From positions 860,001 through 924,000 of the forward strand of contig SMMW01000125.1 in NCBI GenBank assembly GCA_004794655.1: a stretch of DNA of 64,000 nucleotides, in the 5' to 3' direction. A program made the position numbers and the translations under genes. The notes below the pieces were generated by a model. That model did no database searches, was not told the origin of the DNA, and saw nothing but the letters and a program-made list of their open reading frames with translations. Shown one piece after another: positions 5,006 through 52,366 of this stretch; position 1 is the first letter of the stretch, and every line of letters starts with the position of its first letter. This DNA is from Marisa cornuarietis (taxonomy: Eukaryota; Mollusca; Gastropoda; Architaenioglossa; Ampullariidae).

Positions 5006-5163
5006 TAAAGCTCTTGAAATTAATTTCAAACCATAAAAAACCATTTTGTTTAGTTATCTATTTATTTTGTTTCCAGATAATGTCCAACATTTACTGTTTT
5101 ATGTTTTACATTTTTTTGTGAGAAAGATATATAGGCAGAATGTGTACAATGTATGTTGTTGAA

Positions 5164-5169
5164 AATAAA
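5164..5169 (+). terminator. Polyadenylation signal AATAAA of THAP copy A
   Basis: The canonical hexamer lies about 160 bp after the copy A stop codon. The same 3' UTR sequence, with the hexamer, recurs after copies B (10513) and C (15954). Confidence 0.6.
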
Positions 5170-5271
5170 AATATGTTAAAAATAACAGGAGTTCTATAAT
5201 CTAGTACAAGGTTGTTTTTGATTTGTTACTCATTTTAGCTGTGAGTGATATTTCTCTCATTCTACTTCAGA

Positions 5272-5326
5272 CTTGGTTGGTTGGTTGTGTTTTATGCCGT
5301 GCCAGCAACTAAGGCTATATCACGGC
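5272..5326 (+). repeat. Dispersed repeat end upstream of copy B exon 3
   Basis: The motif 'ggttggttggtt...atgccgtgccagcaac...ggctatatcacgg' recurs in inverse orientation at about 18866-18908, so it is a dispersed element end. It lies exactly where copy B exon 3 should have its splice acceptor, which is no longer present. Confidence 0.55.
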
Positions 5327-5562
5327 AAGAAAAAACTGCAAACATGGATGCTGAACCTGCAACAATGGATGCCAAGACTGCTGCAGTGGAAACAGTCAGC
5401 AGCACTTCCATCAAAAATAAAGGAACTGCCCAAAGCAAAGAAAGCTGCCTAATAGGTAACTGTAATTGTTCACTTACGTCTATACTTCTTATATAGTTAA
5501 AATTAATTTTGATGATTTATATATATATGCACAGGTTTTAAATCATAATATTTATTGTCAGA

Positions 5563-7577: not shown

Positions 7578-8823
7578 TTTATTGTCAGAATATTCAGTTT
7601 TATGCCAGCGGCAAGGCAGCAAGCAAAGTCATCATGCCTGGAAAGTTATAATGCGCAGTTTCCAACATAGATGGTTAAAAGAAAAAGACCTCAAAAATGT
7701 ATATTGTAGGACAAAAAAAGACAAAAGTGTAGTGGGTAATTTTTAAAGTATCTTTATAAGTTGGTTCTATGACTGAAGCTAGTCTAAAAGCACATATGAA
7801 AACAGAAAAAATATGGGAACAATAAAAAACACCAGTTAGCCAAAACTTACTTCTTCATCCCTGGTAAGAAAATTTACTAATAAAATTGTGCACCATGATA
7901 TTTTTTTTTTAATCTATATGTCTGTAATAAATGAAATAAAATGAGTGGCAGATGATATGTAGTCTTGTTTGTACATTATGAAAACATCCTTGATTGGTCC
8001 TTAAAATAGGTTTAAAGATCCTTAAAAGGTCTTTATTTCCAGTTTGGTCAGACCTATGTCAATCTTGTTTAAGCAATCGTGTATCACATTCTGGTGGAAT
8101 ATTCACCCTTAGGGCACGAAGGGCACGAATGTGACTTTGCCAGGGAGGCACAGGGAAGGCAATTTTCATTACTTTTATCATAAAGTTAAAGATTTCTCCT
8201 TTCCAGAAATGCATAGGTTTCTTGGTCTAATGTTTACCTAAGTGCAGCAATAATAACAACAAACATCACTTACTGTCATCTTCACAGTGCTATGCTATAA
8301 GAGCTAAGTGCATTTTAGTTCTTTTTTTTGAGTTTAAAATGAGTTTTCAGACATAAATTCAACAGTTTTATTTGTTCTGCTGTTTTGCAAGTTAAAATTC
8401 AGGTACAGCAAGGTATTTTGTGCTGATTAAGACAAAATAAGAAGCAGCAACTTTTAAATGCAGCATGTTCTTCCTTTCAAGCAATACACTACAGTTCTTG
8501 AGAGGTGAAATCTGAGGCATGTTGTCAAAATAAATATTCCTCATATGATATGAGTGTTAAGAAAATATTCAGATGGGTTTTTAGGTCATTTGTGGCCAGA
8601 AATTAGTGACTTAAATGTGAAAAATAGAAGGGAGTTTGACAAAATTCTGATATGCGATATAATTTTTTTTCAGATGCAGCTTCTTCCGTACCGTCAACAG
8701 ATTTTAGTTTCTAATCAGCGGTACATGGTTCTTGCCATGGGTGAATTGCTGAAACCATTCTCCATAATCTATCCTGGTGGCCCAAGCACAAGTTGCCAAG
8801 AACCAGTCAGTCTGCACAGAAAT

Positions 8824-9593
8824 ACTGTAGCTTCGTCCATCGCTATGAACTGTGGACAGTCATGGGCTATGGTTCTTGCTGTGACCTGCTGGTCATACAC
8901 AGGGGTGTGAAGACTACCCATGCTTTTATATCAGCTAGCGGACAGGTGTGTCTCACTGGCTTCCAGAACTCCACAGTCTACGACTATCCTAGCATACTGC
9001 TGATTGCCTCCAGTAGTTCAGTCCAGAAATTCTTGAACAGAATCTGGATATTTCTCAGTGATTGTAAAACTAACCTGATGATCTTACTTCCTTTCCATAT
9101 CCGCCACCTTCCTACAACTGAATCTTTCAAATCTGCACTGAAAACGCACCTCTTCCTTGAGCATTACTCCTAACACAGTCCACACAATGCTAGTCCTTCT
9201 TAACCCCGCCCCCTTCCCTCTTGCTACTTTACCCATCTTTCTTGCAGAATCACTATATTTTTCTGTTCCTGTTACTTGATGCCTTTTGTTATCTGTTTTG
9301 TCAGTACTGTCGTTTTCTTTCGTCCCCTTTGTTCTGTATCTACTTAGTCCACATCTCTTCCTCGTTTTAAGCGCTAAGAGCATGCTCTCTATGAGTGTGA
9401 ATATGCGCTATAAAAATCTTCACTATTATTATTATTATTATTACAAGAATTCTGCTATTTTTCAGTGATTTTAAAACTAACCCCATACACTGTAAACAGA
9501 TCCTTTTTTTTTTTTTTTTTTTGAAAAGCGCATTGAGTCGACTCTGGAGTTGAAAATTGCGCTATAATTCTGCTTTAATAAAATAAAAAAAAA
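8824..9593 (+). pseudogene. STRAD-like pseudogene plus LINE 3' end inserted in exon 4 of copy B
   Basis: The insertion joins the THAP-gene frame directly after SLHRN. About 8824-9048 encodes, in mixed frames, CSFVHRYELW, MGYGSCCDLL, VIHRGVKTTHAFIS, GQVCLTGFQNS, YDYP and FSPEILEQNL. These resemble the STRAD pseudokinase, with HRGVK replacing HRD and LTGF replacing DFG. Copy B retains the TTHAFIS to YDYP part that the copy in A has lost. At about 9089-9441 a LINE 3' end is inserted, ending in (ATT)n. A second element end (gcgcattgagtcgactctgg) with a poly-T/poly-A context lies at about 9503-9593. Confidence 0.7.
9089..9441 (+). mobile_element. CR1/L2-like LINE 3' end with (ATT)n tail
   Basis: The sequence encodes LPFHIRHLPTTESFKSALK, then THLFLEHYS and a stop, which is the typical C-terminus of CR1/L2-type reverse transcriptase proteins. 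A 3' UTR follows, ending 'gagcatgctctctatgagtg...gcgctataaaaat' and (ATT)n. The copy in A (about 1615) lacks this insertion, which marks the boundaries. A related 3' end lies at about 18344-18420. Confidence 0.7.
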
Positions 9594-10530
9594 GAAACAA
9601 TACAAGTGTCAGAAGACAGCACCAGACATGGACCACCACATGTGATCCACAGTCAACAGACTTTCATTGTACTACAGAAGTAAAACAAGAGGTCAGGAGT
9701 GATCAAAAACAAGGCACTGAATGCACTGAAATGCTAGAGACTTGTGGTGTAAAGAAAGAGGCAGAAATGGAGCTTCTGTCTCCACATTATTTTCCACATC
9801 AATGGACTGTGAAAAATGTAATATCAAGCAGTCAGGTTAGATTACTTCAGCCAATGTGTGAGCCACAAAGTCCAAACACTTGGGAATATTCGCAGTATTC
9901 AGTTACAGACAGTCAAGATCATCACATAAAGAAAGAACCTGAGGATTTTGAGACATTGTCACACACTGAGCCTGTAACAGAAATTGGTAATCAGATTCCT
10001 GGGATCAACACAAGAGCAGAGATTTTAAAGCCTAAAAGTGAAGATGTACCTTTCTTGAACATGCTACACCCTGATTCCATTAAGAAAGGATCTGAAGACT
10101 CAGAAATCATGGAATGTAGAGAAAGCAGCACTTTCAACTCCCTGTAGTTTTGAAAGTAAAATGAAGACCAAGATTTATTCTACAGGATTGTACCACAATG
10201 TTCACTATGCTCAGCTTAATTAAATCTGGTGAACATGCCAGTGACAGCAGGAATACAGTTGTTGTTTTTTCGCAGGTGATGCTTCTGACCAGTGTACACC
10301 AACTATTCATGAGATAAAAGCAAAGGATGATGCAAACAAACTTCTTTGTCACCTTGGTTAAAGCTCTTGAAATTACTTTCAACCCTATATTTTAAAAACT
10401 TATTTGTTTAAATCTTTATTTTGTTTCCAGATAATGTACAACATTTACTGTTTTATGTTTCATATTTCTTTGTAAGATATATAGGCAAATTGTGTAAACG
10501 TATATTGTTGAAAATAAAAATATGTAAAAG

Positions 10531-14300: not shown

Positions 14301-15795
14301 GGATATTCACCCTTATAGCACAATGAGCCACGAATGTGACTTTGCCATGGAAGCACAGGGAAGGCAATTTTCATTACTTTTATTGGAAAGTTAAAGCTTT
14401 CTCCTTTCCAGAAATGCATAGGTTTCTTGGTCTAATGTTTACCTGAGATCAGCAATAATAACCACAAACATCACTTATTGTCATCTTCACAGTGCTATGC
14501 TATAAGGGTTAAGTGCATTTTAGTTCTTTTTTTGAGTTTAAAATGAATTTTCAGACATAAATTCAACAGTTTTATTTGTTCTGCTGTTTTGCAAGTTAAA
14601 ATTCAGGTACAGCAAGGTATTTTGTGCTGATTTAGATAAAATAAGAAGCAACTTTTAAATGCAGCATGTTCTTCCTTTCAAGCAATACAGTACAGTGCTT
14701 GAGAGGTGAAATCTGAGCCATGTTGTCAAAATAAATATTCCTCATATGCCACGAGTGTTCAGAAAAAATTCAGATGGGTTTTTAGGTCATTTGTGGTCAG
14801 AAATTAGTGACTTAAATGTGAAAAATAGAAGGGAGTTTGAAAAAGTTCTGATCTGCAATATAATATTTTTTTCAGATGCAGCTTCTTCTGTACCCTGTCA
14901 ACAGATTTTAGTTTCTAATCAGCGGTACATGGTTGTTGCCATGGGTGACTTGATGAAACCATTCTCCATAATCTATCCTGCTGGCCCTAGCCCAAGCTGC
15001 CAAGAACCAATCAGTCTGCACAGAAATGAAAATAATACAAGTATCAGCAAACAGTACCAGACATGGACCACCACATGTGACCAACAGTCAGCAGACCGTC
15101 ATTGTACTGCAGAGGTTAGCAGTGATCGAGAAGAAGGCGCTGAGCAGCTAGAGACTCGTGCTGTGAAGAAAGAGGCAGAAATGGAGCTTCTATCACCACA
15201 TTGTTTTCCCAATCAAGGGACTGTGAAAAGAAAGGGAAAATTAGGCAGTGAGGTTAGATTACTTCAGCCAAAGTGTGAGCCACAAAGTTCAAGCACTTGG
15301 GAATATTCGCAGTATTCTGTGACAGACAGTCAGGATTATCTCATCAACGTCATTAATCCTGCTTACATAAAGAAAGAACCTGAGGATTTTGAGACATTGT
15401 CACACAGTGAGCCTGTGAAACAAATTGGTAATCATAGCCCTGGGATCAACACAAGAGCAGAGATTTTAAAGCCAAAATCTGAAGAAGTACCTTTCTTGAA
15501 CATGTTACACACTGATTCCATTAAAAAAGGACCTAAAGACTTTGAGACGTCATGGAATGTAGAGAGAGAAGCAAATACAACTCGCTGTAGTTTTGAAAGT
15601 AAAATAGAGACCGAGATTTATCCGACAGGATTGTACCACAATGTTCACTATGCTCAGTTTAAATCTGGTGTACATGCCAGTGACAGCTTGAACGAAGTTT
15701 CTTGCCCAAGTGATGCTTCTAACCCGTGTATAACTTCTCTGCATGAGATCAAAGCAAAGGATGATGCAAACAAACTTCTTTGTTACTTTTGTTAA
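11368..15795 (+). CDS. THAP-domain protein, copy C (intact, four exons)
   Basis: Exons 11368-11535, 12079-12281, 13594-13712 and 14876-15795 join with consistent phases (0, 2, 1) and GT/AG borders, giving about 470 residues. Residues 1-95 form a THAP zinc finger: CCVPQC near residue 14, FHGIPKDE, a conserved W in KKLWLVRI, VCSRHF near 65 and DAVPSLF near 86. The C2CH set and the closing AVPxxF motif are all present. The remainder is low-complexity and acidic, with VKKE, IKKEPEDFE and related motifs that fit the SUMO-acceptor consensus (hydrophobic-K-x-E). The LPxCEP and YSQYSVTDSQ blocks are shared with A, B and D. THAP proteins are sequence-specific DNA-binding nuclear factors; the target here is unknown. 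This is the only intact member of the A/B/C tandem set. One VKQE motif kept in A is deleted here, and one IKKEP has become IKKGP. Confidence 0.85.
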
Positions 15796-21853: not shown

Positions 21854-24381
21854 ATGGCTACCACTGGCCACGTGATGGGGGCTGCACGTGCTGTGGTCAC
21901 GGCTGCAGTCTTCATCTTCACCCTCCTTCTCTCGTCCAGCGCACAGCCCGTACAAGGTGTGTACATGGTGTGTACTAGGTGAGTACAAGGTGTGTACATG
22001 GTGTGTACTAGGTGTTACGAGGTGAGTACAAGGTGTGTACGAGGGGAGGATGATCCCACGATGATAACACGATAACGATGATTGTAAAGCTGAAAGTATA
22101 CGCAACAACAATTTATCAGCTATGTTTTAGTTTATGAAACAGTCCTTCAATTTAATTTATTTAAGGTAAGTTTAATTTCATGTTTACGGTACCTGTATTT
22201 AGATGAAATGTTGACTTCATAAGCAGTCAATAAATCATTGTACACGCGTCACTATAGATATTTGTGACACACGCATGCCACTAGGGATATGTGATGATAC
22301 ATGCCATTGTGGATATCGGATGACAAATACTTGGCACTGTGGATATCTGGTAACAAGCGCATGTTACTGTGGATCTCTGGTGTCAGGCATTACGTTGGCC
22401 ATGTTTTCTCTGGCTTGTATAGCCCTTGTGTTGTCTGTTGCACTTGTACACATACTGTGTTGTCTCCTCCCCTTGCCCACACACTGTGCTGTCTGTTGCA
22501 CTTGTACACGTACATGCTGTGTTGTCTCCTCCCCTTGAACACACTGTGTTGTCTGTTCCACTTGTACACATACATACTGTGTTGTCTCCCCTTGACCACA
22601 CACTGTGCTGTCTGTTCCACTTGTACACATACATACTGTGTTGTCTCCCCTTGACTACACACTTTGTTGTCTGTTCCACTTGTACACATACATACTGTGT
22701 TGTCTCCCCTTGACCACACACTGTGCTGTCTGTTCCACTTGTACACATACATACTGTGTTGTCTCCCCTTGACTACACACTTTGTTGTCTGTTCCACTTG
22801 TACACATACATACTGTGTTGTCTCCCCTTGACCACACACTGTGCTGTCTGTTCCACTTGTACACATACATACTGTGTTGTCTCCCCTTGACTACACACTT
22901 TGTTGTCTGTTCCACTTGTACACATACATACTGTGTTGTCTCCCCTTGACCACACACTGTGCTGTCTGTTCCACTTGTACACATACATACTGTGTTGTCT
23001 CCCCTTGACCACACACTTTGTTGTCTGTTCCACTTGTACACATACATACTGTGTTGTCTCCCCTTGACCACACACTGTGCTGTCTGTTCCACTTGCAGCA
23101 GCGACGTCGTCTTGTGATATTCCGTGTGTGATAGGAACGGGACCTACATCATTGACATGCACGTTTAGTGTTGATGTTAATGAAACCAAAAGCAACTTCA
23201 CAGTGGTCCGCCTCGGAGACGGGGATAGCAACGGCAACGCTCACATCATCAATACGGCTAATGTCAACTCCAGGGGCTGTAGTTATGAGGCGAGAGTAAG
23301 TCGTTTCCTCGGAGAGTGTCATCTTGTTTCCGATGTTTTGAAACAGTGTCCAGCCCACGGGGACACTACTTCATGTTTCTTTACCCCAAGGCATCTTTGC
23401 TACCGCTTAATAACTACGGACCTAGAGATAAAACAACATCATGGTTGGACGGATCTAGAGATAAAACAACATCATGGCTGGACGCAGCTTGCTGACCTCA
23501 GAATTGAATTCTTCCTGTTCCCGCAGACCAACGACTTATCCTCGCTTACTAAGTACGGCTTCTGGATGATGACTGAAAAACAATCTCTTTCACGGTGTTA
23601 AGTCTTATATCGCTAATTCACTGCCTTTTGTTCCTGCTCTGATAAATTAGCATCCATCTTGCTTCGTCGTCGTCGTCGTCGTCTTCATCGTGGATTGAAA
23701 AAAATCAGGAAAAAGTGCTTATAGAAGTTGATTATCTCTAACATTTTGAGAATCCAGTATAATTATTATAATAGTTACAGTATGGAGCAGGTAAAATACT
23801 TTTCGCGTGGTGAAAGAGTTCGCTGGACACAAAATAAGCCAGATTAAAGTTAGTTTTCAAAATAAGAAATAACAAATTTAGAACACATGTAGAATATTAA
23901 GCGGATCGTGTACTGACTATAACCTGAAAAGTTTTCCCCATCGGTGTTATTATTAAAACCTTTATCAAAATTCCGAATTTACAATTTCCCAGTCAAAATG
24001 AATAGACAAGAAAACGTGAAATATGAACGATGTCTGACAATCAGTCTGTAGACTCTGTAATTATGAAAACATAGGATACTTAACTTTAGTCTATTATATT
24101 TTTCAATGACAAATTTACCACTGAACTATTTTTTTCAAACTCTCGTTAAACACGGTAACTCCTTTCTGTTCCATCAGATCCAAAATCGTTTCTCTACAAA
24201 GTAACAACGACGTTTTCCTTAAACAAGTGAAATTTCTATCAGCACCGTTTTAAGAAGTTTCAAAATAATAATTATATATATATTTGTAAAAAATAATCTA
24301 TGATGATAAAGCTCAAGTGGAAACAAAGGATGGTGATAATGAATCAGAGAAGAGAGTTGGAGGGACAGACGTAACAACGAT

Positions 24382-24412
<31 letters not shown>

Positions 24413-27400
24413 TAGAGAGAGTTATGATTTGTATGATGGTGAATACATTTGTAAGATGCATTGTAGATTATATCTTCTGACTATGTGGTCGTGCAACTTA
24501 ATGTCTGTTAGTGCCTAGAGCCCAGTTATGTTGTTGATGAAGCTCTCTATAAATAAACTATATATATATATATATATAGACAGTAGGACTATTAGTACCA
24601 TTATTATTATTCTTGACATTACGAAACAGGCACAGTGGCTTATGATGAAAAGTAATGCAGACAGTAGGAACGACTTATCTCACCTGCTATGCCCCAAGAT
24701 ACATTTTCCCAGATCTGGCAACAACTAGCAAGTTCAGCTGAACAAAGTTATCTTCTTTTCCCGTAGGCGTCTGTCCTAAACGGTCTTTCTACGGGTTCTC
24801 CTTTCATTTATATGGAAGTGCTTTCATTTACAAAACTGTTTTTCTTGCTTTGCAGGTGTTATTTTACATTAAGATATGATCCTTTAGACCATTTTATTAA
24901 TCATATAAATGTTCCAGTCACATATATCTTCATACCTCCTAATCTAGGTGTCAGCATTGTGAGCTGCACCTGGCTAAAAGACCAACTGAGTTGCACCATG
25001 GCCCCGGGATACGAGATCAACAGCACAGTCACAGATCACCTCGTCATCAGAGTACCACGAGCATCACGTGACCACAGCGGAAGCTACGCTTGTCACGTGA
25101 CGGGCTCTAGGGTGGAGGGTTTTGAGCCTTGTGCTCTCATCGTCATGCCAGGTACGTCTTTTATTTTTGGAGGAGTGGAAGTTTATCATTACTCTCGTCA
25201 AAAAGTACACATAGTGGTGCGTCTAGTGCATGTCTCTGTGTCTTTAATCTCACATGTGCCCCCCATCAGCAGCTACACAGCCCTCGCCGCCCACCTGAGT
25301 CATGCTTCTTCAATAATTTTTACTCCAGAATCGTGTAAATAAAAAAAGTACAAAATCCGATCATTTAACTAAGCGAGCAGCATTTGAAATAATCATATTG
25401 ATTACATTATAAAACATCTCTTCCTTCCATGAAGTTTATAATTTTTGTAAATATTAAAATATTTGAATTTTTTATTTTGATTTAGGATGTAGCTTTTCTT
25501 TTATAGGTGACAATGCTGGTGTCATTATCGGCGTGACGGCTGGTTTCATTGGCATCGGATTTGCCATTGCCATCTACATCGTCAGGATATACAGACCTCA
25601 ATGTAGAAGTCACGTGTTCAGCTGGTATGCGTTTGTATTGTGGTTTGTGTCTTTTTTTTGCGGTTCTGTTTTTTCATTCGTAATGAAACAGTATGGATAC
25701 ATCATGCGTTTGTGATTTGTGATGTGTTGTTTGTAATATACAACGTGGTACATATATGATGCCTATGTGAAGCAGGTTGTGGTAGCTTTTGTTTATTCTC
25801 TTTGTACATATTGGAGTCATAGCGATATACAGGGGCTAATAAAAATTTATTTTATGTGTAACTTCTAATAACACTTTTTTAGTGCTAACTTCATATAAGT
25901 ATGGGCAATTTGGGATAATTATACATGCATTTGACTTTCACCCCAAGTTACGGGTTTGAATTCTTCCGGTTTTGATGGCGGCTTATCGCTTGGCGTGTAG
26001 TATGTAAATAATAGGCATATACTGTCAGGAGAGTTCTGTCAACATCCGTCTGGCCGCCGGTTGTGTGTGCCAGCATGCAGGACCAACAGATTGAGACTGT
26101 CCTTCGTTATGTCGGCCGTGCGACTTCTGAACGATACTGTGTGCAAATGAGTGAAGATGCTGCTCATAAGCGAGTCTGAATCATGACTGTATCAGGGTCT
26201 GTGTGGTGAAGCGGGTATAAACGTGTTACGTTATTGTTAATTGTTGTTGTTGTTGTTGTTCTGTGTGGTTCTAACCTTGCTTTTCTATAGAGTTGTTTCT
26301 AATTGCCATCCGGGGTAAATAGTCGTACCCTGTCTACAACGCCTGTGCTTACTACGAAACATTGTTGGGAAACTGCATTCAGCCTCCATTAGTTTCAACC
26401 TCGTTTCTCGTGAATTTTCCAAGCTAAATTTTGTGACTAACGTGTAGACGATGGGTGCCTGTAGTTTCAGCGAAGTGTCATGCTTCGTTTGCATCAAACT
26501 GCCTTTCGGATATCTTTACAACTTGTAAACGGGCAGACACTAAATCGTTATACTATTTAATATTCAGATGACTATAACTGATTTAGTTTGCTTTCTTACA
26601 GTGTAGCACGTCGTAACCTTCACAATCTTGATGAGATTCAACTGCACTTTTCTTTTCCCGGTATGATAGAGTGAATTACAGAAAAATACCGTTTCGTGGG
26701 AACTTTGTAATCAATTTAATTACCAATTGGTGTGAATAAGCATCGCACTTTTCCCGGTCATTTTCACAATTAGTGTCACAGTTATCCGGATTGCTCGACA
26801 AATGTTCACTTAATGTATGTTTGCTGATGAACCAGCAAATGAAGTTATGAATAGATTTTTCTTCCTATCCAAACGAAATATCCAGGACAGAATTTACATT
26901 TCATCAATTTAAAGAGAATTGTTGCGATGTTTTTGCTTCAGCTACGTTAACAAAAAGGACCGTTCACTGACCAAAAGAGCCTGACGATATAATATTCTTA
27001 GAAAATGTTTGGCGCACCAGATCGAAATGTTTGAGACTCTTCTTCTAAACATTTATCCGATCGAATGACTACACTGATCAAAACAACTTGAAACTAGGAT
27101 ATGTACCGACATTAGGTATGCACTGAAGCCATTAGTAAAACAGTCCTAGGGAGGCAGACGATCTATAAATTTTTTAATTGTTTGCAGGACAATTTCTAGG
27201 GCAAAAAATTGGTCAGATGATAAAGATCCTGCTAAGAAGATGACAAAACAACCAAAAGGAGAAAAAACTTCTACTGTGAATTTGATGACTCCAAAGGAGA
27301 AAGTAAGAACGTAAATAATCACAAGAAAAAAGAAACTTTCATTGACAAAATTCACCAGATGATATTAGCGACATTTGCATGATGCATTTTAATTCTTTCT

Positions 27401-30400
27401 TCTTTTTTTTGGTTTTGCCTAATTATGACAAAGATTACATGTTGTTTACCACTTGGCTGCGATGCTGCGAAATATACGTGTTACGTTCATATTAATATTA
27501 AATTAAATAATCTTTGTATTTGAATCAGAGTATATCTATTTTTGCAGACATTTTATTTCAGCCTCACGACAACTGCATTTGTGCTACGTCGTCCTGTCTC
27601 AGACATTAATTCTTACATAATGTTCCCAAGCAAACATTTACAAGACAATGAAACCTTACTTGGGACCTCATTTCTGGTCCGTCTGCTCAAGACGTCTACT
27701 CAACATTTTCCTTATGTAACACAAACATAAGTCAAGTGAACAGGGGCTCACGGATATCAACACAAAGAGAGCGAGAGAGCGAGAGAGAGAGAGAGAAAGT
27801 AGTTGTAGAATTGCAGATATAAAAAAGCGGAAGGGAAGGGATAGGAAGGGTAAAATAGACCATGAAACTAGCCGCCATATAAACCGTTGAAGTTGATGGT
27901 ACTTTATGCAGGGAAGTTGTCTTATAAACATGATGTAAACTATTTGTTTTCAGTTTAGTTTTAAGACCAACTTTTTAAACTTACGTGTTGATTTACTTTG
28001 CATTTCTTACCCAGAAAAATTTAACGAAAGAAAAGGTCCAAGAGTTCTGGATGAAGTGGGTAGAGGCCGTGTACCCTGATCTCGACTCTCGCGCCTACTT
28101 CCTGCCTCCTGTCTACATCAACCGGGTGCCGATGACCAGACAGTCGGTTGCTGGTCACGAAGTTCGGGTTCTTCAGCAAGCATCAGGGGGAGATGAGCCG
28201 GCGCCGCGTAAATCTGCTTCTACTCGACGTTCTGATCGACTTCCTATTGTACAGGACAGTGACATCAGAGATGACGAAGCTATGCAACGGATTTTCATGT
28301 GCCTACAGACAATGTCTGAAGAAAACTCAGAAGTGATGGTTGGAATAAGTCAGCTTCAGTTCGGACAATCCAAGGGTTACCGCACTTTACCTGGGAAAGC
28401 AGCGGCTGCTTTCCTTCCTAAATCCACTGACCTTTCTCCTGATCAAAAACAAAATATGAAAGAGGGGGATTTCGATGTGCTTCTTATTCACCGACATTAC
28501 GGTTTTGTGATCTTTGAGGTGAAATCAGTTGGTCGGTTTAATATGTCACAAGAGAAGCTTAACGAACTGATTAGAAGAAAGATAAGAGATGCCATTAAGC
28601 AGCTGAACAACGCGGAGGCCATGTTGTCTCACCTGGTGTCCGACATCGGGCCCGGTGTCCGCATCACTAAGACGATTGCGCTCCCGAACCTCACGGGTCA
28701 TCAGGTACAACAGGCCATCTTTGGCGACCATCAACTGACTACGGTAAGTAGGTCTTCCATTTTAGGTTTTGATTGGCCTCAAAAAAAGATAGAAGGCAAA
28801 AGTATTGCCGTTAATTGTCAGCCTAATTTATGGTTACATAATTTATAACGTAGTATGTGCAATAATATGTATCACATTGCCTATACTGATGTCAAATGAA
28901 AGGTAGAGTTGTGCAAACAATGAAATATCGTCAAGGATACCAATATATTTAATAAACTATTTTATTTCTTATTATATGGGAAGTCGGACAGGGCGCCTTC
29001 CTGGCGACTTCATCAAAAGCTACGGTTTCGCCTGGATTCTTTCTGGCTGCTTGGTGATGCCTGTCATACATACCGCGCTCTCTCTGTTTTACTCTAGTGA
29101 CCGTCTCATTTGCCCAGGTATTCTCTGTCTGTTTGTTCTGGTGACCATATCCACCCAGGTATTCTCTGTCTGCTTGTTCTAATGACCTTCTCATTCACCT
29201 GGGTATTCTCTGTCTGCTTGGTCTAGCAGCCTTCTTGTTGACCCAGGTGTTTTCTGTATGCGGCCCCAGATCTTAGGTCTTAGTTATGACATCGACCTGA
29301 TGGCAGCTAACAATAGTGAGCTGCAGGCTGTCGTAGATAGACCCGCTGCCAGCGCATACAGGATGAACATCAGCACGGACAAAAGCAAAGTAATGGTGAA
29401 CACTGTCGGAGAGGCAATCAATCCATGCATTGAAGAAAAAATGCTTCCCGGGACTGCTCCGAATCGCCTACAGGGAACAGAGTTCTAATGTGGGGTCCAG
29501 ATCACGCGGATGATGCTTCACCTTTGGGGTAGTGGGTAGTGGTTTTGAAAAGATAGCAAAATGATTTAAAGTTCCATTGATCATTACTCTCTGGGTCTGG
29601 AAACCGCTTCTGTGTTCCCTCAAGGATTCCATTCCCCCCCCCCCCCGGGGACAACTCTCGCTTCATGTTTAGAGCCTTACACGGAAACCTGATTAATTAA
29701 GGACTTCAAAAGGATTCTTCTTCACTTACGACTCACTGATCTTTCGTTAATAGGTCATCAAACCTCTCGCTTTTAGTGAGTCCCAGCATTTTTACAGTGA
29801 CTGAGATAAGGGACCTGCCTTGGAATGATACAGAAGAGCACCCATTTTTCTTGTCAGAATGTCGATATCCACACCTGAGAATCTATACTCACATCTTTCT
29901 CAGAGCAGTGAATACATACAATCATCGACTGCATTTAAAAAAAATACATAATGAGGTATTCTGTCCATTGACTAAGCCTGGAATGCTAGCAGTAAAAAAC
30001 TCACGGAACCCGACGTCAGTTAGACAACTGGAGAGACTCTAATACACACGGTGCCTGGTTTGTTGTTATCGTTTGAAGGGCTATCTGGAGAATATTTTAT
30101 ACCTTTCTATTAACCACTGTGGTAGAACCCTTGGTTTTACCATTGCGGAGTCTTACATTTATTGTCCGAAGGTTGACCAAGATTAAGGACAAGCCTGAGA
30201 ATGAGCCAGGATTTGATTGTTTTTCTTCTATTTGTTTTGCTTGAAAATGCTTATACCAATATGTTTCAGCCCTCAGAAAAGTGCCATCAACAACCCACCA
30301 CAATATAGTCTAATGCTTTAGTGAATTTTAATTCCTTCTATATAAGAATAATAAATTTTAACAGTACTTATGTTTATTATTTACAGGACCTGTGTCGATG

Positions 30401-32888
30401 TCTGGGAACAACAGATTCAGCAGCCGATATCGCTGGACTTTGTCTGTGCTCTGATCAGTTGTCTGACCTCAAGACCCCGTGTGACGTCAGTAGTCACGTG
30501 CTGAGGGAACTCGGACACTGGTGGCAGCGACGTGTGGCTGGGGCTGGACCTGACAGTCACATGACACCTGAGGTGTACAAGGCACTGGTAGCCAGGTTAG
30601 TGTAAGAAGGTTATGTATTACTGTGTACTTAGGTATACGCGTGCGGAGAATGTCATGTGCCGTGCATAATGTCTTTATAATTATAGCTGTCGCCTCACCT
30701 ACCACTGTTCTCGTAAGAGAAAGCGTGAGCTAATCGTAGTTAAAATGTGTCTGGTATTCACATACGATTTTAAGGGAACATCAGGGTTTAGTGGGAGCTG
30801 TACAGTAGCGTAGTGGTAGGATGTTCGCTTGTCACATAAACATATGATTGTCCTAGATTCTGTGGTCCGGCGACAACAGTGAGTGTGCCATGTACATGTC
30901 CTCCACGTGTGAGTGTCAAGACCCTGGGTCAGGCCGTGTGGTGGACAGGAGAGTGCTATACTGCTGCAATAACACTCTTCCCGGAGCAAGTCCTCCTGCT
31001 CAACAGGGCATCTCCCAGACAATTTGTGACTGGACCACCCGGTACAGGTAAAACCGTGGTGCTGTTGTTGATTGCTATACAATGGTTGTATAGTGGCCAC
31101 CACGTCTACATTGTGAGTACTTGGCTGGGGAACCGTGCAGTCTGCAGCATGCTCTACCACCTGTTGCTGAACACTCTCAACACGTACCGGTCAGCAGGTG
31201 CATCATCCGATCAGCTTCACCTCCTGCTGTATGATTTTGATGGCGGTAAAGATGTGGAGAAGGCCGTCAACGACTTGTCACAGGCGGCGAGCGGAGGGTC
31301 GTTGTACGTCATCGCTGATGAAGTGGGGCTTGAGTTAGGGTGAGTAGTACAGCGTGTGATGTGGTGAAAGATAAACAGGTAGACAGAGCTTTTTCGTGGT
31401 AATTACTGACTGGTATTTAATAGGTGATAATTTGTAGTTGGTTGTGACATCTGATGAAGATGTATACAGCCAACGACAGACAAAATTAGACATGTTTTGT
31501 TACTTCCGCTCTGGTAGCAAAAGATGTAATTGTTTTATCTAGTCTGTGATGACAAGTGAGCTGATTTCGTAACTTTGGTACACGACACACAAACATCAAC
31601 ACATATTAGTCAAATTAGACATTCTAGCGCGTTTTTCACTATCCGCTGTAACTCTCATTTCTGTGACAGTGAAAACAACTTCCAAATTTTCTGTTACGAT
31701 CTGCGGAGACAAGTTCCTCGTCTCCATCTTTGGGCGGCAAGTTGTTTCCATGGACACACACCCGCCGGCTGGCAAGTGAAGTCTTTAACCAGACCCCTCC
31801 GCTCTCCGCCAGCCGTCATCAGGGAATATGAGCCGGCTAGGTCTATCACTGACCTCCGCCATGTCCACCCGTATAGTAAGCGTGGTGTGCCCGACCACAC
31901 AGACGGCCCGCCAGTCAGACGACTGTATCACCGAGGTCAAAGTCAGCTAGGTGACTGGCCAGGTGACTGTGTCACGTGCGGTCGTGAGGTGGCCAGCTTC
32001 CTACACAGTCTCCGTGTTGGTATTCCGGGTAGGTGCGAGTATTATATATTGTAACTTCTGTTAACAAAACTGTCACAAATAACAATCAGGGGCCAGTTGC
32101 ACAACACATTTCTAATTTTAAACACCTTTAGGCCTTAACTCTATTTAGATAATTAGTTTAAAGTGCACACCACAATTTTAGAATTTTTAAAACTAAAACT
32201 GCTTTAAGTAAGATAAAGTTGTTTAAGTCTGACTTTCCGTCCTGTCAGTAAAATTTTTTATATGTTTTTCTTCAATGCATAAAAATGGCTAAGAAGAGAT
32301 TTTTCTTCTTTAGAACAGTTTTAAGGTTTAGAAACGTGTTGTGCAACTGTCCCCTGATATGAAACGGTCTGGTGTAGAAGACAGTGTTTTAGTCTGTGAT
32401 TTTACGTTATAACATTGTGATATCATTGTTTATATCTATGTGTCTGTCAGTGTGCACCTGTATTTGTGATAATGACTTACAGAAGAAACTAACTTTGAAT
32501 GTTAACAGCGCATGACACAGCGGCATCAGCCACCAGCGGCGGCACAACACCCCCATACCTGCAGTGGAGAGACGTGCTGGTGTTGTACTGGGCTGGCGTC
32601 GGTGACAACTCAGGATTGGTGAGAGCACTGAGGGGAGCGGGTATTCCAGTGCGGGTGATGAAGAATGATAACGATGACTTTGAGGACGTGGCCACGGCCC
32701 GCAGTGACGTGGTGTGGGTGGCTCTTGGTGACCAAGTTCGTGGATTGGAGAGAAAAATCGTCGTCTGTCTGGATGACAATGCCCGACTTCACTGCATGTC
32801 CAGGTGTACGTCACAACTTGTGATTATCTCTGCTGGCGACAAGCTGCATGAGCATGATTCAGGCTTCAACACCTGTCACCTATTGTAG
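21854..32888 (+). CDS. Ig-domain membrane protein with cytoplasmic NERD nuclease-like and SF1 helicase-like NTPase domains
   Basis: Deduced exons: 21854-21956 (signal peptide, VFIFTLLLSSSAQPVQ), 23099-23295 (Ig-like half, LTCTFSVDVNETKSNFTV with N-glycosylation sites), tentative 23527-23594, 24856-25151 (Ig-like: SCTWLKDQLSC, RASRDHSGSYAC), 25507-25624 (membrane helix GVIIGVTAGFIGIGFAIAIY, then basic RIYRPQCR), 26602-26660, 27188-27302, 28015-28743, 30387-30595, 30857-31339, 31670-32028 and 32509-32888. Total is about 1040 residues. The 28015 exon has EGDFDVLLIHRHYG and FVIFEVKSVG, the D...ExK pattern of NERD nucleases (PD-(D/E)xK fold). The later exons carry Walker A GPPGTGKT, Walker B-like LYVIADE, motif V-like QVRGLERKIVV and motif VI-like SRCTSQLVII. 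Phases agree throughout from 28015 to the stop, and from 21854 to 26660 if the 23527 exon is accepted. The join from 26660 (phase 1) to 27188 (needs phase 2) is unresolved, so the extracellular half could belong to a separate gene. Confidence 0.7.
21951..22045 (+). repeat. Tandem repeat of donor-like sequence at the 5' end of intron 1
   Basis: The exon-intron border (tacaag|gtgtgtac) recurs about three times as 'gtacaaggtgtgtac', interleaved with 'ggtgtgtactaggtgagtac'. Each unit offers further GTGTGT or GTGAGT donor-like sites. Confidence 0.75.
22426..23098 (+). repeat. 59-bp minisatellite ending at a splice acceptor
   Basis: The 59-bp unit repeats about eleven times. Units alternate between a 'gaccacacactgtgctg' and a 'gactacacactttgttg' version, giving a 118-bp higher-order period over most of the array; the first units are more variable. 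Every unit contains TGTCTGTTCCACTTGTACA. In the last unit this becomes TGTCTGTTCCACTTGCAG, the acceptor of exon 2. Long open frames across it on both strands are by-products of the repeat. Confidence 0.9.
23421..23480. repeat. Short direct duplication
   Basis: The run 'tagagataaaacaacatcat' is present twice in tandem, about 33 bp apart, inside an intron of the receptor gene. Confidence 0.7.
24384..24412. repeat. (GT)n microsatellite
   Basis: An intronic GT repeat of about 14 units. Confidence 0.9.
29117..29262. repeat. 41-44 bp tandem repeat, four copies
   Basis: Copies of 'ggtattctctgtctg.ttg' start at 29117, 29158, 29202 and 29246. They lie in the intron between the NERD exon and the 30387 exon. 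Confidence 0.7.
29275..29420 (+). mobile_element. LINE reverse transcriptase fragment
   Basis: The frame reads DIDLMAANNSELQ, then MNISTDKSKVMVNT. This resembles the region following the RT catalytic motif (DD changed to YD here) in RTE/I-type LINEs. It is a short relic inside an intron. Confidence 0.6.
30797..30845 (+). mobile_element. SINE head fragment
   Basis: The run 'agcgtagtggtaggatgttc', then 'gcttgtcac', resembles the tRNA-like head of the SINE family at 16765 and 40030. It ends about 10 bp before the acceptor of the 30857 exon. Confidence 0.4.
32088..32357. mobile_element. MITE with CAGGGGCCAGTTGCACAAC-type inverted ends
   Basis: The left end CAGGGGCCAGTTGCACAAC and the inverted right end CAGGGGACAGTTGCACAAC differ at one position over 19 bp. 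AT flanks both sides, which would fit a 2-bp duplication or a slightly longer inverted repeat. It lies in the last intron of the receptor gene. The superfamily is undetermined; ISL2EU/Harbinger-like elements are candidates. Confidence 0.75.
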
Positions 32889-35606: not shown

Positions 35607-35678
35607 TTGGTGAACCTCGTGTAGTATTACCAGTGAGAAATACTATCAGCAATAACAAGACTATTGCGAGCTAACAAA

Positions 35679-38576
35679 ATGCCAAGAGTGTGTGCTTCTG
35701 TCAACTGCAGAGAGTTGGGTATAAAAGGCTCGCCTTACAGCTTTCATCATTTCCCCAAAGATCCGAAACGTCGACTCCAATGGGCGAGAAATTTAAACAG
35801 AAAGCAGCCAGAGAGCGGAAAGCTGTGGATGCCACAAATTCACGACGTCATTTGCGCCAAACATTTCACAAAAGAATCTTTCACCATGCAGACTCGCATC
35901 AGTAGAGAAGGCGGCATTCCCTTTCTACCAAGACTTGAGCCAGACGCTGTGCCAACAATTTTTGTTCGTAATAAAGAGACTCGGAACACACACCAACCAG
36001 CATCAGATCCCCAGCTTAAAAATGCGACAAGTACAGAGCTGCAAAACAAAGTATGTATTGTGATCACCAGATATAAATATAGATATAAATATTTTAAGTT
36101 GCTAAATACACCTCTTTGTGCATTGTAAAAATATGCAGGTCCCAAACGTGTTAAAAGTTAGAGCAATATGTGAATAAAACGCATAAGTGGCTTTTATTTT
36201 GTAACAGGTGAACGTGACAACTTCAGCAGTCTCTAACAGCCGTGCTAATCTCTACAAATCTCTCTTTGACTTGTACAAATTGCCAGATGTAACAAAACCA
36301 CGGGGAGCATATATAAAACGAGAGCACCAGCGAGTAAGTAGATAAATGCTAAAAATGAAATAAAAAAATGCACTGACTATACTGCTAACTTGTAATCAAG
36401 TTTGACTAGAAATATTATTACCTCATTGTGACTAGAGATGTGTTGACTAACCAAGTAGATGAAGGGTTGGGTCTAATTTATTATCCTTTCTGTGAGCTTT
36501 TGTTCATGGTGTTCCCATTTCCTTCCTCTTCAAGTGAAACCACAGCAGAGATCCTTCAATCCATGGCCTTGGTCACAAACATGTAGACACTGAAGCCTGA
36601 GTGATACTTTTATCATGAAAAGTTTTCACCCAGGAGTGTCCTGAAAGCATCATGATTTTCTGTTGGGGTTTAGTCCCATAGCGCTAATCTTTTTCCAAGA
36701 TTACCTACAAGGCAGTAGAACCAATTAACCGTTGGGTGAAGGTGGTGCAGCTTGCAGAAGGAACCCATTTTTCCTAGAACACTCAACCACTTGGATATTT
36801 AATAGTTAGCAAGAAGTTTAACCTACATATAGTTCTTGTTACCTTTATGAGATGTGTATGAATTTTAACCCCTTTACCCATTGAGCATTTGTGTGTGTGT
36901 GTGTGTGTGTGTGTGTGAACTGCTGGCTTGGAGAAGATTTTTGATCACTCAGCCATCAGGGCAAATGATCTTGTAATAATAATAATGATGGAAACAGTCT
37001 AGAGAAAAGTGTCATGCACATGATCATGTTTTAAACAGAGGTAGTAAAGCCCTACAAAACACTTTATGTTACCATATAAAGGCTTTGATAAGGCTGACTT
37101 TACTATTCCTGCTCAAAGTCTTGTCATGAAACCACGAACATGTATAGGTGGACTGATGACTGTCTGCCAAGACCAATGCTTAGCCTCTTGCGAAGTTCTC
37201 CACTGTTAGTCTCAGCGAGCTTAAACCATGAATGTGACTAAACCGAAAGCTTTGTGCACAAAAGCCTTGTTCTAGCAGTCAACTGAAAAAAAATCGTCTC
37301 CAAGCAGTCCATTAATACAAGTTCGTGATGAAACCCATGTTATATAGCCTTCTGAAACAAAAGGGTTTTGAGATAAAGGTAAGGCACATTCTCCCATGAC
37401 TGTTTCTTAGAATACAAAAGTTGCGATCGAAAAAAAAAAAAGAATACAAAAGTTAAAGTACACTTTTTCTCATTCTTCGTGTCAAAAGTTTTACCTGCAA
37501 ATCCCAATTTCCAGTGCCAGCCATACTATGCACTCACAGTCTGTGAGAACAGTGATGAGTACAAATTCAGCAGTCACTAACAGTGCTGTCCGTCGCTGTT
37601 GTCTACTCTTGTGCTTATACAGGTTGCCTGGTGTAATAAAACAGCAAGGAGCATATGTAGGAAGCAAACATCACTTACATAAATAAACCACTGAATGCTT
37701 TGGACATAATCATTTGAAAATTATCTAGATCTATTTTCATTTTTTTTCCTTCTATATATGAGCCCCTGCATAAATGATAGAACTGTCTTTCTGAGATTGT
37801 GCTTTTTTTGTCATTGTCTTCTGAAATTGATGATTTTCAGCTTTTAAAATATTTTGTGCACTTACAGTTTGAAAATTTTCATTTCTTATGCAAAAAAAAG
37901 CAGGTTGATGTTTGATTTTATTTACAAACAGGTTTTGAGCGACATTTTTGCATCTCAATCAGATGTCAGCATGTCTACATCTGAGGTAGCAGCAAAAGAT
38001 GTTGATGGCTGTAATAATGGTGTGACCCTTTTTATTGCTCACCATCAAAGCATAAAGGAAGCTGAGCAGACAGACACAGTGGTAATAAAATTTAGTAGTT
38101 TGAATATTCAAAAGGTTGGATGGAGAAGGACAAAACTGCTTGAGCTTAAGTCATTATAACCTACACAGTAATGGTTGTCCAAGGGAATATATGATGCAGT
38201 CTGTATGTGTCTGAAATAGTCAATACTGGATTGGGTTTATGGTTTAGTCAACATTTAGACTTTGGAAAAAAATTTCTTGTGCATCTTTAAAATTGATGAG
38301 ATTTATTGAAATTTTAATAATTTCTTGTGCAGCTTCTACTGCTAAATGCATGCTTTTTTTTTGTTACTAGTCATGAAGTTCACTTTGGTTTGATTAAACC
38401 TTATAGTTAAAAAGGAGTTGGATACACAATACTATTACTGGACTGAAAATTTCTTTTCCAGCGTTCAGTTCATCATTCAAGTGCACATGGAGAAACAGAA
38501 CAGGTAACTGAATGTTTATCAACTGTTGCAGTTATGGCTAGTAAACAAACTGTCACAGAGTTCTGAGACACATGTG
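35679..38576 (+). CDS. THAP-domain protein, gene H
   Basis: Exon 1 (35679-36050) encodes a complete THAP domain: MPRVCASVNC, YSFHHFPKDP, a conserved W in RLQWARNL, VICAKHF and DAVPTIF. Further exons chosen by splice sites are all phase 0: 36208-36333 (YKSLFDLYKLPDVTKP, ending IKREHQR), 37932-38081 (VLSDIFASQSDVSMS), 38462-38503 and perhaps 38532-38576. IKRE fits the SUMO consensus. I do not see a convincing last exon or stop, so the 3' end is open. The THAP exon is most similar to F and G (the MPRxCA and F-TM-Q pattern), so H, F and G form a second THAP subfamily in the window. The role is probably as a DNA-binding nuclear factor; the target is unknown. Confidence 0.75.
36895..36918. repeat. 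(GT)n microsatellite in an intron of gene H
   Basis: About 12 GT units. Confidence 0.9.
37540..37680 (+). pseudogene. Decayed duplicate of gene H exon 2
   Basis: The translation NSAVTNSAVRRCC, LYRLPGVIKQQGAYV is collinear with exon 2 of gene H (TSAVSNSRANLYK, LYKLPDVTKPRGAYI). The upstream phrase 'gtgatgagtacaaattcagcagtc' also aligns with 'gtgaacgtgacaacttcagcagtc'. It lacks the donor used by the original, since 'gcgagtaag' has become 'catcactta'. Confidence 0.6.
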
Positions 38577-43400: not shown

Positions 43401-46400
43401 AGACCTGTAGACAAACAAGAATGAAGATGATATCATGCCATGAAAAGTGTAATGGAGCAGTTAAAGCACCAAGGTAAAATTCTTGTTTTATCTATATTAG
43501 GAGAAACCTTCAAACTGTTTTAATAATAATAATGTTGGCTTGTATAGCGCCAAATCCTGGCCTGTGGACAGCTCAAGGCGCCATTATTTGTATTTTAACT
43601 TGCTGTCTTAATTACATTTATGATTGAGGTTTCCATGAGGCCAATACTTGCTTTGTTAATAAGGTGCTTTAGGTTGTCATGACAAAAAGGGGGGCTAATA
43701 TGATGTGATCAGATCTGATGATAAAAAAAAATGTGTTCATGTGACTGAATTGTATTAGTGAAATGATTGGTTGGTCTTTGACCTTTTTCCATATTCAATC
43801 GAGCCAGCCACATTCCGTATACATTTCAAGTCAGAAGTTATAGAATGCAATCTATAAATATAGATTTCAAATGTATAGCTAGAATGCATTCTATAGCTAA
43901 AGAATTGAAAGGTATATATATAAAGTGAATTGGATAGCAACTTCTGAGTATAATATAAATGAAACACTTCGGTTTTTACCGTGTTTTTCTCTCTCTAGCT
44001 ATACATTAACTCCGCCTGGAAACCCCCCGGGTAACCTGCTGGTCCCAAGCCCGGATGAAGGAGGAGGGTTGGGCGTGGGGTTAGCAACCCCACCCTGTAA
44101 AACAACCCTTGCTACAGAAACTACAACTACAACATTACCAGAACGAGAGCCTGGACAGAAAGATCCCTCTTTGGAGGGGCCTATGACGCGTGCTGGCGAA
44201 AGCTTTCGGAAAGTCAGCTCGCCAACCTATCTTCTCACGGCCAAGGCAAAAACCAGGATAGGGACCTGGAACATCAGAACCCTATACGAGAGAGGGAAAT
44301 CAGCTCAGGTAGCACAGGAGATGAAGAACTATGGCATCAAGCTCCTTGGCCTGTGCGAGACCAGATGGAATGGTAGCGGTCAGACCAGACTCTCGTCAGG
44401 AGAGACTTTTATCTACTCTGGACATGAAGATCCTGACCATGACCACTCACAAGGAGTAGCAGTACTGATGACACAGGAGGCTGCAAGGGCACTAATATCA
44501 TGGGAACCAGTTTCCCCACGACTCATGTCAGCTCGGTTTAACTCCAAAGGAAGAAAGATCACCATCATCCAGTGCTATGCACCTACCAACGCAGCAAAAG
44601 AAGAGGAGAAGGAGGACTTTTACAACTCCCTACAAGCGCTGGTTGATCGTACTCCAAGACGAGACCTGAAGATCATCATGGGCGACATGAATGCCAAAGT
44701 TGGAGATGAAAACACGGACAAAGAACACATAATGGGAAAGCACGGTGTGGGCAACTGCAATGAGAATGGTGAGCTGTTCACAGATTTCTGCTTGTTTAAT
44801 GACCTTGTAATCGGAGGCACAGTCTTTCCTCACAAAAACATTCACAAGACCACCTGGACTTCACCAGATGGAAATACAGAAAACCAGATCGATCTGGATG
44901 TCAGGGTAAGGCGTGGTGCAGATGCAGCCTCAGACCACCACCTGCTTGTAGCAACTTTGAAGATAAAGCTGAGGTCCTTCCATGAGTCATCAGACAGACC
45001 ACACCACAAATTCAACGTGCAGTTTCTTAGAGATCGCAGGAAGCAAGAAGAGTTCAACTGTGAAGTCAAAAACAGGTTTGGGGCACTGGAGGGACTCTTT
45101 GAAGAAACAGTGGCCAACCACTGGACAGGATTACAGGAGACCTGGAAGGCTGCCTGCACACGTGTTCTGGGAAAGAAACAGAAACAACACAAGGAATGGC
45201 TGAGCATAGGGACCTGGAAAAAGATAGAGGAAAGGAAAGAGCTGAAGCAGAAGATCAGCCAGTGTCAAGACCAGCAGGAAAAAGAAGAGCTCAGAGCAAA
45301 GTACTGGGAGATGAACCGAGAAGTGAAGAAGAGTGCAAGAGGCGACAAGAGACAGTTCGCACACAGGATGACAGAAGAGGCAGAACAAGCAGCTGGGCAA
45401 AATAACATGAAAAGACTATACGAAATTACAAGAACTATGTCAGGACGGAAAAACATCAATGCATGCAGGCCAGTAAAGAATAAAACGTCATTACTGGGGA
45501 TGCAGAACAAAGATCTCGCTGGGCAGAATATTTTAAAGAAATACTGAACCGGCCACCACCAGCAACAATTTTGGACATTGCCCCAGCCACCGAGCAACTC
45601 CAGGTGAACACCAACCCACCAACCAAGGCAGAAATCATCAAAGCCATCAAGTCTCTGAAAACTGGTAAGGCGGCAGGCCCAGATGGCATTCCTGCAGAAG
45701 CACTCAAGGCAGATCCAACAGCCGCAGCAAAGATGTTACACCCCCTGCTGCAGAAAATTTGGAAGCAGGAGCAAGTTCCAGCAGACTGGAAACTTGGCTA
45801 TCTGGTAAAGCTACCCAAGAAAGGTGACCTGACCCACTGCAGCAACTGGCGTGTGATTATGCTACTGTCCATTCCCGGAAAGGTGCTGACCAGAATCATG
45901 CTGGACAGACTGAAGAATGCCCTAGACAAGAGACTGCGGCAAGAACAGGCAGGCTTTCGGCAGGGTAGATCATGCACAGACCATATTGCTACACTGCGAA
46001 TCATTATTGAACAATCCATCGAATGGCAGTCCCCACTATACATGACATTTGTGGATTTTGAGAAGGCATTTGACTCCGTAGACAGAGAGACCATCTGGAA
46101 GTTGATGCAGCACTATGGATTTCCACCAAAGTTCATTGCCATCATCCAACAGCTGTATGAGGACTCGACATGCCAGGTGATCCACCATGGGAAGCTGACG
46201 GACCCCTTTGCAGTGAGGACTGGAGTATGGCAAGGTTGCATGCTCTCGCCGACAATCTTCCTCATTGTCATAGACTGGATCATGAGAAGAACAACCTCTA
46301 ACAGCAACACAGGCATTCAATGGACCTTTGCCATGCAACTTGAGGATCTCGACTTTGCAGACGACATCAGCCTGCTGTCCCACAAGCAACAACATGCACA

Positions 46401-52033: not shown

Positions 52034-52294
52034 GACACCTCAATGAATTTTAGTTTCAATAAGCATTTAGTTTAGAAAAAAAGTAATGGTTGTGAGATCC
52101 TAGCATGCTGAAAAGCAAATTAGAAACTAAACTTTGACCGGCTAATTTACAGTAATGTCTTGAACTTAGGAAAACTAAAGAAGATTTGTATGCCTTTAAA
52201 GAGCAAACTGAGATACATTTGAACCAGCTGCAGTCAAGTGTAAATATACTATGTCGCTGCCCTTAGTTCTTAGGTATTTTGTCCATTATTCAAC

Positions 52295-52334
52295 GCATGC
52301 GCAGTACACAATCGTCAGTGGTCAAAGCGGAAGT
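52295..52334 (+). promoter_or_regulatory. NRF1-like and ETS-like sites upstream of THAP gene E
   Basis: GCATGCGCA at 52295-52303 is the core of an NRF1 site, and AGCGGAAGT at 52326-52334 is an ETS core. Both lie within 75 bp of the ATG at 52367. Confidence 0.45.
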
Positions 52335-52366
52335 CGGGGTATCAGCCATTAGTGTTTACTACAGAG

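Follow-up and report, generated by a model that had tools for sequence, protein, structure and literature searches.

The window examined here, a 64,000-nucleotide stretch of a Marisa cornuarietis contig (SMMW01000125.1, positions 860,001 to 924,000), contains on its + strand, at 21854-32888, what reads as a ten-exon gene whose 944 codons run without a stop or frameshift, as read from stop-to-stop frames and a splice model. The 944-amino-acid model holds, in order, a signal peptide, one immunoglobulin-like (Ig) domain, a membrane helix, a juxtamembrane exon, a NERD/PD-(D/E)XK-like domain and a superfamily 1 (SF1)-type nucleoside triphosphatase (NTPase). The reading that we favour, tentatively and at somewhat less than an even chance, is that a single transcript would join these parts into a single-pass type I receptor, in which a signal peptide, an Ig ectodomain and a transmembrane (TM) helix are followed by a NERD nuclease-like domain and an SF1 NTPase of Schlafen/UvrD type, and that this receptor would be gated by a ligand and act in defence or in self/non-self recognition. 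In such a receptor, the binding of a ligand at the cell surface would cluster the Ig ectodomains, the SF1 NTPase with ATP would engage nucleic acid, and the paired NERD domains would cut or hold it, in a logic like that of IRE1; the tail could be either a nucleic-acid enzyme or the dead derivative of one. We suggest a role in defence or self/non-self recognition because the family is expanded and arrayed, has both live and changed variants, and finds parallels in Schlafens and in bacterial NERD-helicases.

Among the open-licence papers searched, none dealt with this family and no receptor pairing an Ig ectodomain with a NERD/SF1 tail came up; we know of no Ig receptor with such a tail. Ig receptors, NERD-helicases and Schlafens are already known; what appears to be new, judging from sequence, is their fusion into a receptor whose enzymatic tail is made of unusual parts.

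Recurrence of the architecture and the gene model

The genome of M. cornuarietis (534 Mb, 572 contigs) was searched with parts of the gene. The counts that follow are lower bounds, because only the best candidates were scored (135 of 397 and 150 of 398 for the NERD queries, 150 of 316 for the Ig exon and 44 of 1299 for a query of the type of the homologous protein P0113). The NERD frame of the window had at least 135 matches, itself included, and the Ig exon at least 150 scored matches. When three queries were merged by hand, NERD exons were scored at no fewer than 195 distinct places, some of them perhaps haplotype duplicates; this figure combines 135 rows, the 21 new places among 25 new-looking rows of an exon-only query, and 39 of the 44 P0113-type rows, the other 5 being matches to the NTPase part. 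The Ig exons grouped into 72 clusters, and in 22 of these a NERD exon follows downstream on the same strand, 1-8 kb away (range 1039-7982). The window pair, whose two matches start 3032 bp apart, falls within this range. Within 10 kb, no cluster has a NERD exon upstream on the same strand (0/72) and none has one on the opposite strand (0/72), and 50 clusters are without any scored NERD exon over that distance; widening the limit to 15 kb gives 24 downstream, 5 upstream, 1 downstream on the opposite strand and 0 upstream on the opposite strand. Because of this one-sided arrangement within 10 kb, we consider it likely that 21854-32888 is one gene. If the tail is active, it would provide a direct switch from the outside to nucleic acid with no kinase or adaptor, and a gene set of at least 195 NERD-exon places, with 22 Ig clusters that have NERD just downstream, makes this question testable in snails.

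At four loci (L027, L029, L030 and L031) Ig, TM and NERD exons follow each other in that order. L029 goes on to a connector and a P-loop exon; neither was seen at the other three loci in the 1.3 to 2.9 kb fetched past the NERD exon. The clusters are not all necessarily independent, because haplotype duplicates are possible, and the NERD exons of L027 and L031 are 97% identical. A weak point of the recurrence is that, among the 20 ten-kb loci covering 8-9 kb upstream of NERD exons, Ig exons were present in only one (L027). A separate observation concerns G000:C442:948638-1595948, an array of P0113-type NERD exons that accounts for 37 of the 44 scored matches, all but one on the + strand; the remaining matches are the five NTPase-part rows and one NERD row each on contigs C220 and C548. 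Six Ig clusters in this array lie 1-6 kb upstream of a NERD exon.

The preliminary description of this DNA had placed a signal peptide exon, Ig-like exons, a membrane helix and the two enzyme-like modules on one strand with mostly matching splice phases. The strand and the phases were borne out, all ten exons lying on the + strand with 9 of 9 phases matching after two boundary corrections (the end of exon 2 and the start of exon 9), and the combination of a single-pass Ig receptor with NERD and an SF1-like NTPase, Schlafen-like in kind, is supported by genome recurrence, homologous gene models and structure prediction. The signal peptide, Ig exons and helix are present at about the places first given; the Ig exons proved to be the two halves of a single domain, and the end of exon 2 had to be shifted. 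The initial splice model had a single phase conflict, between exons 2 and 3. In homologous receptors the reading GGGDSKGVDIVTCTW (P0103) sets the end of exon 2 at ...GATAGCAACG (23233), followed by GC and not GT, and with this end the only phase mismatch disappears; an end at 23295 (donor GTAAGT) was rejected, since it gives the wrong phase into exon 3. The GC donor (AACG followed by GCAACG) looks derived in the window copy, because L027, the sole paralog read there, has a canonical GT at the same site. For exon 9, a start at 31670 gives ELG-ENNFQIFC as in the homolog P0002, as well as a phase match; a start at 31709 was rejected because it loses 13 residues, among them the ENNFQIFC that matches P0002.

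The alternative of two adjacent genes, in which exons 1-4 would be what is left of an Ig/TM receptor and an independent NERD-NTPase gene would begin downstream at exon 5 or at an unseen exon, draws on several details of this model. The closest homolog, P0002, begins within exon 6, most listed models lack Ig or TM, in-frame ATGs occur inside exon 5, and to these may be added the GC donor on exon 2 and a TM exon unlike that of any relative: the exon 4 helix (Kyte-Doolittle 2.3), which is the sole phase-compatible TM-like open segment between exons 3 and 6 at the thresholds used, had no sequence match to the TM stretches of relatives. The order and spacing of the parts nevertheless recur genome-wide in one direction only, the phases match throughout, gene models of Pomacea canaliculata join the parts, and, of the 6 receptors tested, 2 have a juxtamembrane stretch that exon 5 matches. 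These two, P0103 and P0114, are closely related to one another, and none of 2000 shuffles aligned equally well; P0115, P0057, P0088 and P0111 showed no similarity to exon 5. Given the Ig-NERD recurrence and the juxtamembrane match, we regard two genes as improbable.

For the ectodomain of the single receptor gene that we prefer, the evidence comes from relatives. Exon 1, with a hydrophobic stretch at residues 7-26, shares 52% identity (E 0.002) with the N-terminal ends of P0057-P0059, and the signal peptide and Ig domain together are nearest to the P0057/P0103 group. Exon 3 is 65-71% identical to the Ig repeats of P0103/P0059 that match it best and 45-49% identical to those of P0027/P0088; a further comparison with the P0103/P0059 repeats gave 64-68%. 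By itself the exon 3 frame falls below Pfam gathering scores (Ig_3 14.4 bits vs 30, I-set 13.1 vs 23.7; best E 0.057), and therefore the window Ig domain is recognised through its relatives, of which P0026 reaches 44.2 bits for V-set against a cut-off of 26. No second Ig domain in the window was matched by six receptor queries in tblastn searches. The only hydrophobic segments of the model, 7-26 and 151-175, correspond to a signal peptide and one TM helix in one open frame, and the ectodomain has three N-glycosylation sequons; the predicted topology is that of a single-pass type I membrane protein with the three sequons outside.

Table 1. Exons of the predicted gene and a repeat in its first intron (window coordinates).
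Feature	Coordinates	Strand	Content and evidence
Exon 1	21854..21956	+	Start codon and signal peptide MATTGHVMGAARAVVTAAVFIFTLLLSSSAQPVQ; donor GTGTGT, phase 1
Exon 2	23099..23233	+	First half of Ig domain (CDIPCVIG...LGDGDSN); phase 1; tblastn with P0103, P0059, P0027, P0088
Exon 3	24948..25151	+	Second half of Ig domain (VSIVSCTWLKDQLSC...SGSYACHV...)
Exon 4	25507..25624	+	Transmembrane helix (AGVIIGVTAGFIGIGFAIAIYIVRIY) and start of cytoplasmic tail
Exon 5	27188..27302	+	Lysine-rich juxtamembrane linker connecting TM and NERD; extra exon beyond the first reading
Exon 6	28015..28743	+	NERD/PD-(D/E)XK-like domain; motif GDFDVLLIHRHYGFVIFEVK intact
Exon 7	30387..30595	+	NERD-to-NTPase connector, mostly helical in the P0002 model; 54-79% identity to P0027/P0103/P0059/P0088 at the same place
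Exon 8	30857..31339	+	First half of NTPase: Q-motif-like LFPEQ, Walker A GPPGTGKT, Walker B VIADE
Exon 9	31670..32028	+	Middle part of NTPase (LHLWAASCF..LTRPLRSPPAVIRE..); tblastn with P0027 reaches back to 31680
Exon 10	32509..32888	+	C-terminal part of NTPase (GLERKIVV, MSRCTSQLVIIS) and stop codon; tblastn with P0027, 52%
59-bp tandem repeat, 11.3 copies	22427..23095	.	Tandem Repeats Finder; intron 1, abutting the Ig exon acceptor

The nuclease-like and NTPase domains and their catalytic state

A NERD-like D...ExK motif and a GPPGTGKT/IADE P-loop module had been noticed in the preliminary description, which proposed structure prediction as a check. Both motifs are present where they had been placed, the P-loop module on the + strand and accompanied by the motif VI arginine, R681. 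In AlphaFold models the NERD region shows a PD-(D/E)XK-like topology, and an 81%-identical homolog is confidently predicted to have an SF1/RecA-type fold; for the nuclease part the claim held less fully, the structure-database matches being only of middling score. The alpha-beta-beta-beta-alpha-beta core that defines the PD-(D/E)XK fold can be followed in the AlphaFold model with D, ExK and Q in place (H81-104, E108-117, E150-159, E163-169, H179-207, E217-222). In alignment A2, E168 and K170 are invariant and D154 and Q196 reach at least 90% (exon-6 numbering), and the window copy retains the NERD D, E, K and Q. The gathering score of PF08378 (NERD), 22.1 bits, was missed by the window exon (21.9) and by P0002 (21.6); a precomputed PF08378 label is carried by the relatives P0001, P0003, P0040, P0089 and P0096.

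The NTPase part has the SF1 signature set of Walker A, Walker B DE, Q motif and motif VI arginine (motif names assigned by eye), and at each of the 22 sites read it has the same residue as P0002. Positions conserved at 90% or more in alignment A1 include Q345, G360, K366, D455, E456 and S680, and also G661 and R664 (P0002 numbering); the window has G661, R664 and S680 plus R681, which is outside the list. The model of the 81%-identical homolog has two RecA-like domains in an SF1 fold that aligns with human SLFN11 and SLFN14. The exon-8 frame missed the gathering score of SLFN-g3_helicase (PF09848), with 22.7 bits vs 24 and E 6.8e-5, and 14 of 44 relatives match this family at E≤0.01. Nothing significant was found by phmmer with the inner half against PDB sequences (PIF1 at E 0.53). 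A STAND NTPase was considered and rejected, since nSTAND_NTPase5 scores 23.3 bits (P0002) and 19.8 bits (window exon) against a cut-off of 34.

In the chief rival reading, which we hold to be doubtful but serious, the receptor is real but has a pseudoenzyme for its inner half: a scaffold of NERD and NTPase domains that would signal by an ATP-dependent change of shape or by binding partners and would cut no nucleic acid. In P. canaliculata, the D, E or K of the NERD site is changed in 12 of 12 Ig-NERD loci, a set that includes P0122, which has no visible TM, and P0142, which was judged by eye; P0113 and P0142 are without the Walker A consensus, P0112 has a changed Walker B, and the receptor P0121 has an exonuclease-fold domain whose first motif appears to be changed. 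On the other side, D..E.K is kept in the window copy and in each of the four sister receptor copies read (L027, L029, L030 and L031), a biased sample that was reached through an intact query. P0020 of P. canaliculata, whose model opens within a TM helix resembling the one in P0026, is probably a receptor cut short; it keeps all three residues and, counted as a receptor, would bring the tally to 12 changed of 13. Among rows filed as non-receptor, where P0020 is counted with the intact ones, D/E/K is kept in 85 of 108, not kept in 13 and not covered in 10; the 13 "broken" rows include P0120 and P0121, which have no NERD domain, and P0036 and P0108, which look misaligned. From the intact sites here and the changed sites in P. 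canaliculata, it follows that receptors with live and with changed sites both exist. The P. canaliculata models had suggested that no receptor other than the window copy has kept its nuclease site intact, an idea that the four sister copies contradict.

Two results bear on the proposed function. The 12 changed P. canaliculata loci argue against a general nuclease activity, and the Ig exon is under purifying, not diversifying, selection. The ratio of nonsynonymous to synonymous substitution (dN/dS, NG86) between the window copy and L027/L029/L030/L031 is 0.41-0.45 for NERD and 0.25-0.41 for the Ig exon, and among the sister copies it is 0.36 to 1.08 for NERD and 0.19 to 0.84 for the Ig exon. 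The low values argue against fast diversification of the window Ig exon and also against a pseudogene. A decaying copy, belonging to an expressed family and on its way to becoming a pseudogene that makes no working receptor, could account for GC instead of GT at the donor, for a single Ig domain against the two to five of relatives, and for the stops in some NERD exons of the family (6 listed rows), but the 944 codons are free of stops and frameshifts, dN/dS against the sister copies is below 0.5, and the NERD and Walker residues are retained, which leaves decay an unlikely explanation. The stronger statement that many copies carry stops was ruled out: the earlier query behind it overran exon ends, and the 6 rows are those of the exon-only query.

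Relatives and neighbouring sequences

A search with the inner half returned 113 homologous proteins at E≤7.2e-48, from Pomacea canaliculata, Littorina, Batillaria, Babylonia and Nucella, plus three "lgn" proteins. A profile search returned 214 proteins, with the same genera among the 120 matches listed, besides one unnamed entry. These searches scored only the candidates sharing most words, and the named range, genera that we take to be caenogastropods, is that of the matches listed. By its sequences this is a large, partly tandemly arrayed family, seen here in caenogastropods only. Most listed relatives are modelled without Ig or TM, some perhaps cut short at the 5' end, and 7 of 44 have an N-terminal KH domain; NERD-NTPase units modelled in this way are probably cytosolic. 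On the reading that we prefer, the same unit has been joined to Ig ectodomains in a receptor branch, and the wider search for this architecture that the preliminary description had called for did find it in another gastropod. The P. canaliculata branch, in which two to five Ig domains stand before a TM helix and NERD, comprises P0026, P0027, P0029, P0057-P0059, P0088, P0103, P0111-P0115 and P0142 (the last three by eye); P0026, P0027, P0029, P0112, P0113 and P0142 continue through the NTPase region, and the other receptor models end before the P-loop. P0122 has Ig and NERD with no visible TM. The three "lgn" proteins (P0067, P0076, P0087) were rejected as evidence for the fusion, as they are without Ig and TM.

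A search with the receptor Ig also found P0121 (P. canaliculata LOC112574800), which has Ig domains, a TM helix and a cytoplasmic domain of DEDD-exonuclease fold (RNase_T match 2.5e-7, above the cut-off) with FHLETTGL as its first motif. On these matches, P0121 joins this family of Ig ectodomains to another tail derived from a nuclease.

A bolder proposal, which we think unlikely though worth stating, is that these genes form a new class of caenogastropod innate receptors: arrayed Ig receptors whose tail would be a catalytically alive relative of the linker-helicase half of Schlafens, so that a ligand switches on the cutting or remodelling of RNA or DNA. If so, the sisters with dead nucleases could be decoys or regulators, and the free NERD-NTPases an effector pool.

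Elsewhere in the window, LINE-type (long interspersed nuclear element) endonuclease and reverse transcriptase frames (Exo_endo_phos, RVT_1) lie at 43901-46938 and 6276-7157 on the + strand, and P-element/TNP-like transposase frames at 59811-61976 on the - strand. Three THAP-domain frames are found at 35637-36128, 52274-52804 and 57611-58075 (+). Four similar long frames at 4046-5005, 9587-10147, 14710-15795 and 48266-49159 (+) share IKKEPEDFE-like motifs, by eye; the only one scanned (14710-15792) gave no Pfam match.

Comparison with known systems

The inner module appears, from predicted structure, to resemble half of a Schlafen antiviral protein. In the group 3 Schlafens (SLFN5, SLFN11, SLFN14) a linker is likewise followed by an SF1 helicase, and with the usual limits of these domains the two are collinear (homolog model 1-692 vs SLFN11 391-899). 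The NERD exon alone matches the linker region (SLFN14 379-526, SLFN5 344-498), and the A1 profile finds SLFN5 at E 0.001, best over the P-loop, ranked behind an ArsA ATPase at 3.5e-6. Since the fold is shared, a NERD-type nuclease may also be proposed as the ancestor of the linker domain of Schlafens. Unlike a Schlafen, the window protein has an Ig ectodomain and TM helix in place of the N-terminal core, and across the whole length the superposition gives a large root mean square deviation and a low TM-score. We know of no Schlafen linker that holds the NERD catalytic residues, which the window protein has. No Schlafen core (AlbA_2-like) was found at E≤0.01 in the 44 relatives, among the 25 of 27 Pfam families listed. 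Because no such core was found and the helicase model scores below its cut-off, the window protein is not a Schlafen, as judged by domain content.

The bacterial NERD-helicases (NERD+UvrD, reverse transcriptase-associated NERD-Hel and Nhi) share the order of NERD and then SF1 helicase. Weak PADLOC matches link P0002 to NERD+UvrD (0.016), P0086 to RTasNERD-Hel (0.0037) and P0067 to Nhi (2.2e-5), the last differing in that the match is confined to the P-loop region; the window exon had no match in PADLOC, and a scan of NCBIfam was also unproductive. To our knowledge, no membrane receptor is known among these proteins. A close bacterial origin was rejected, as the at least 7 loci in the contig scan have open reading frames that look by eye like ordinary SF1-type helicases, 6 of them matching only around the P-loop and L032 spanning query 255-389. 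A close viral origin was rejected as well, with no relative among 600 pattern matches in viral contigs.

IRE1 has an outside sensor, a TM helix and an inside nucleotide-binding and nuclease module, and is activated by clustering. The likeness would be one of logic, from sensing to nuclease, and we claim no homology; IRE1 has kinase and KEN RNase folds and senses in the lumen of the endoplasmic reticulum. Among gastropods, Ig-like parts are also found in families of molluscan immune proteins of the FREP/CREP type (PMC9178244). In those families, Ig is joined to fibrinogen or C-type lectin domains, whereas the window protein joins it to a TM helix and a nuclease-NTPase tail.
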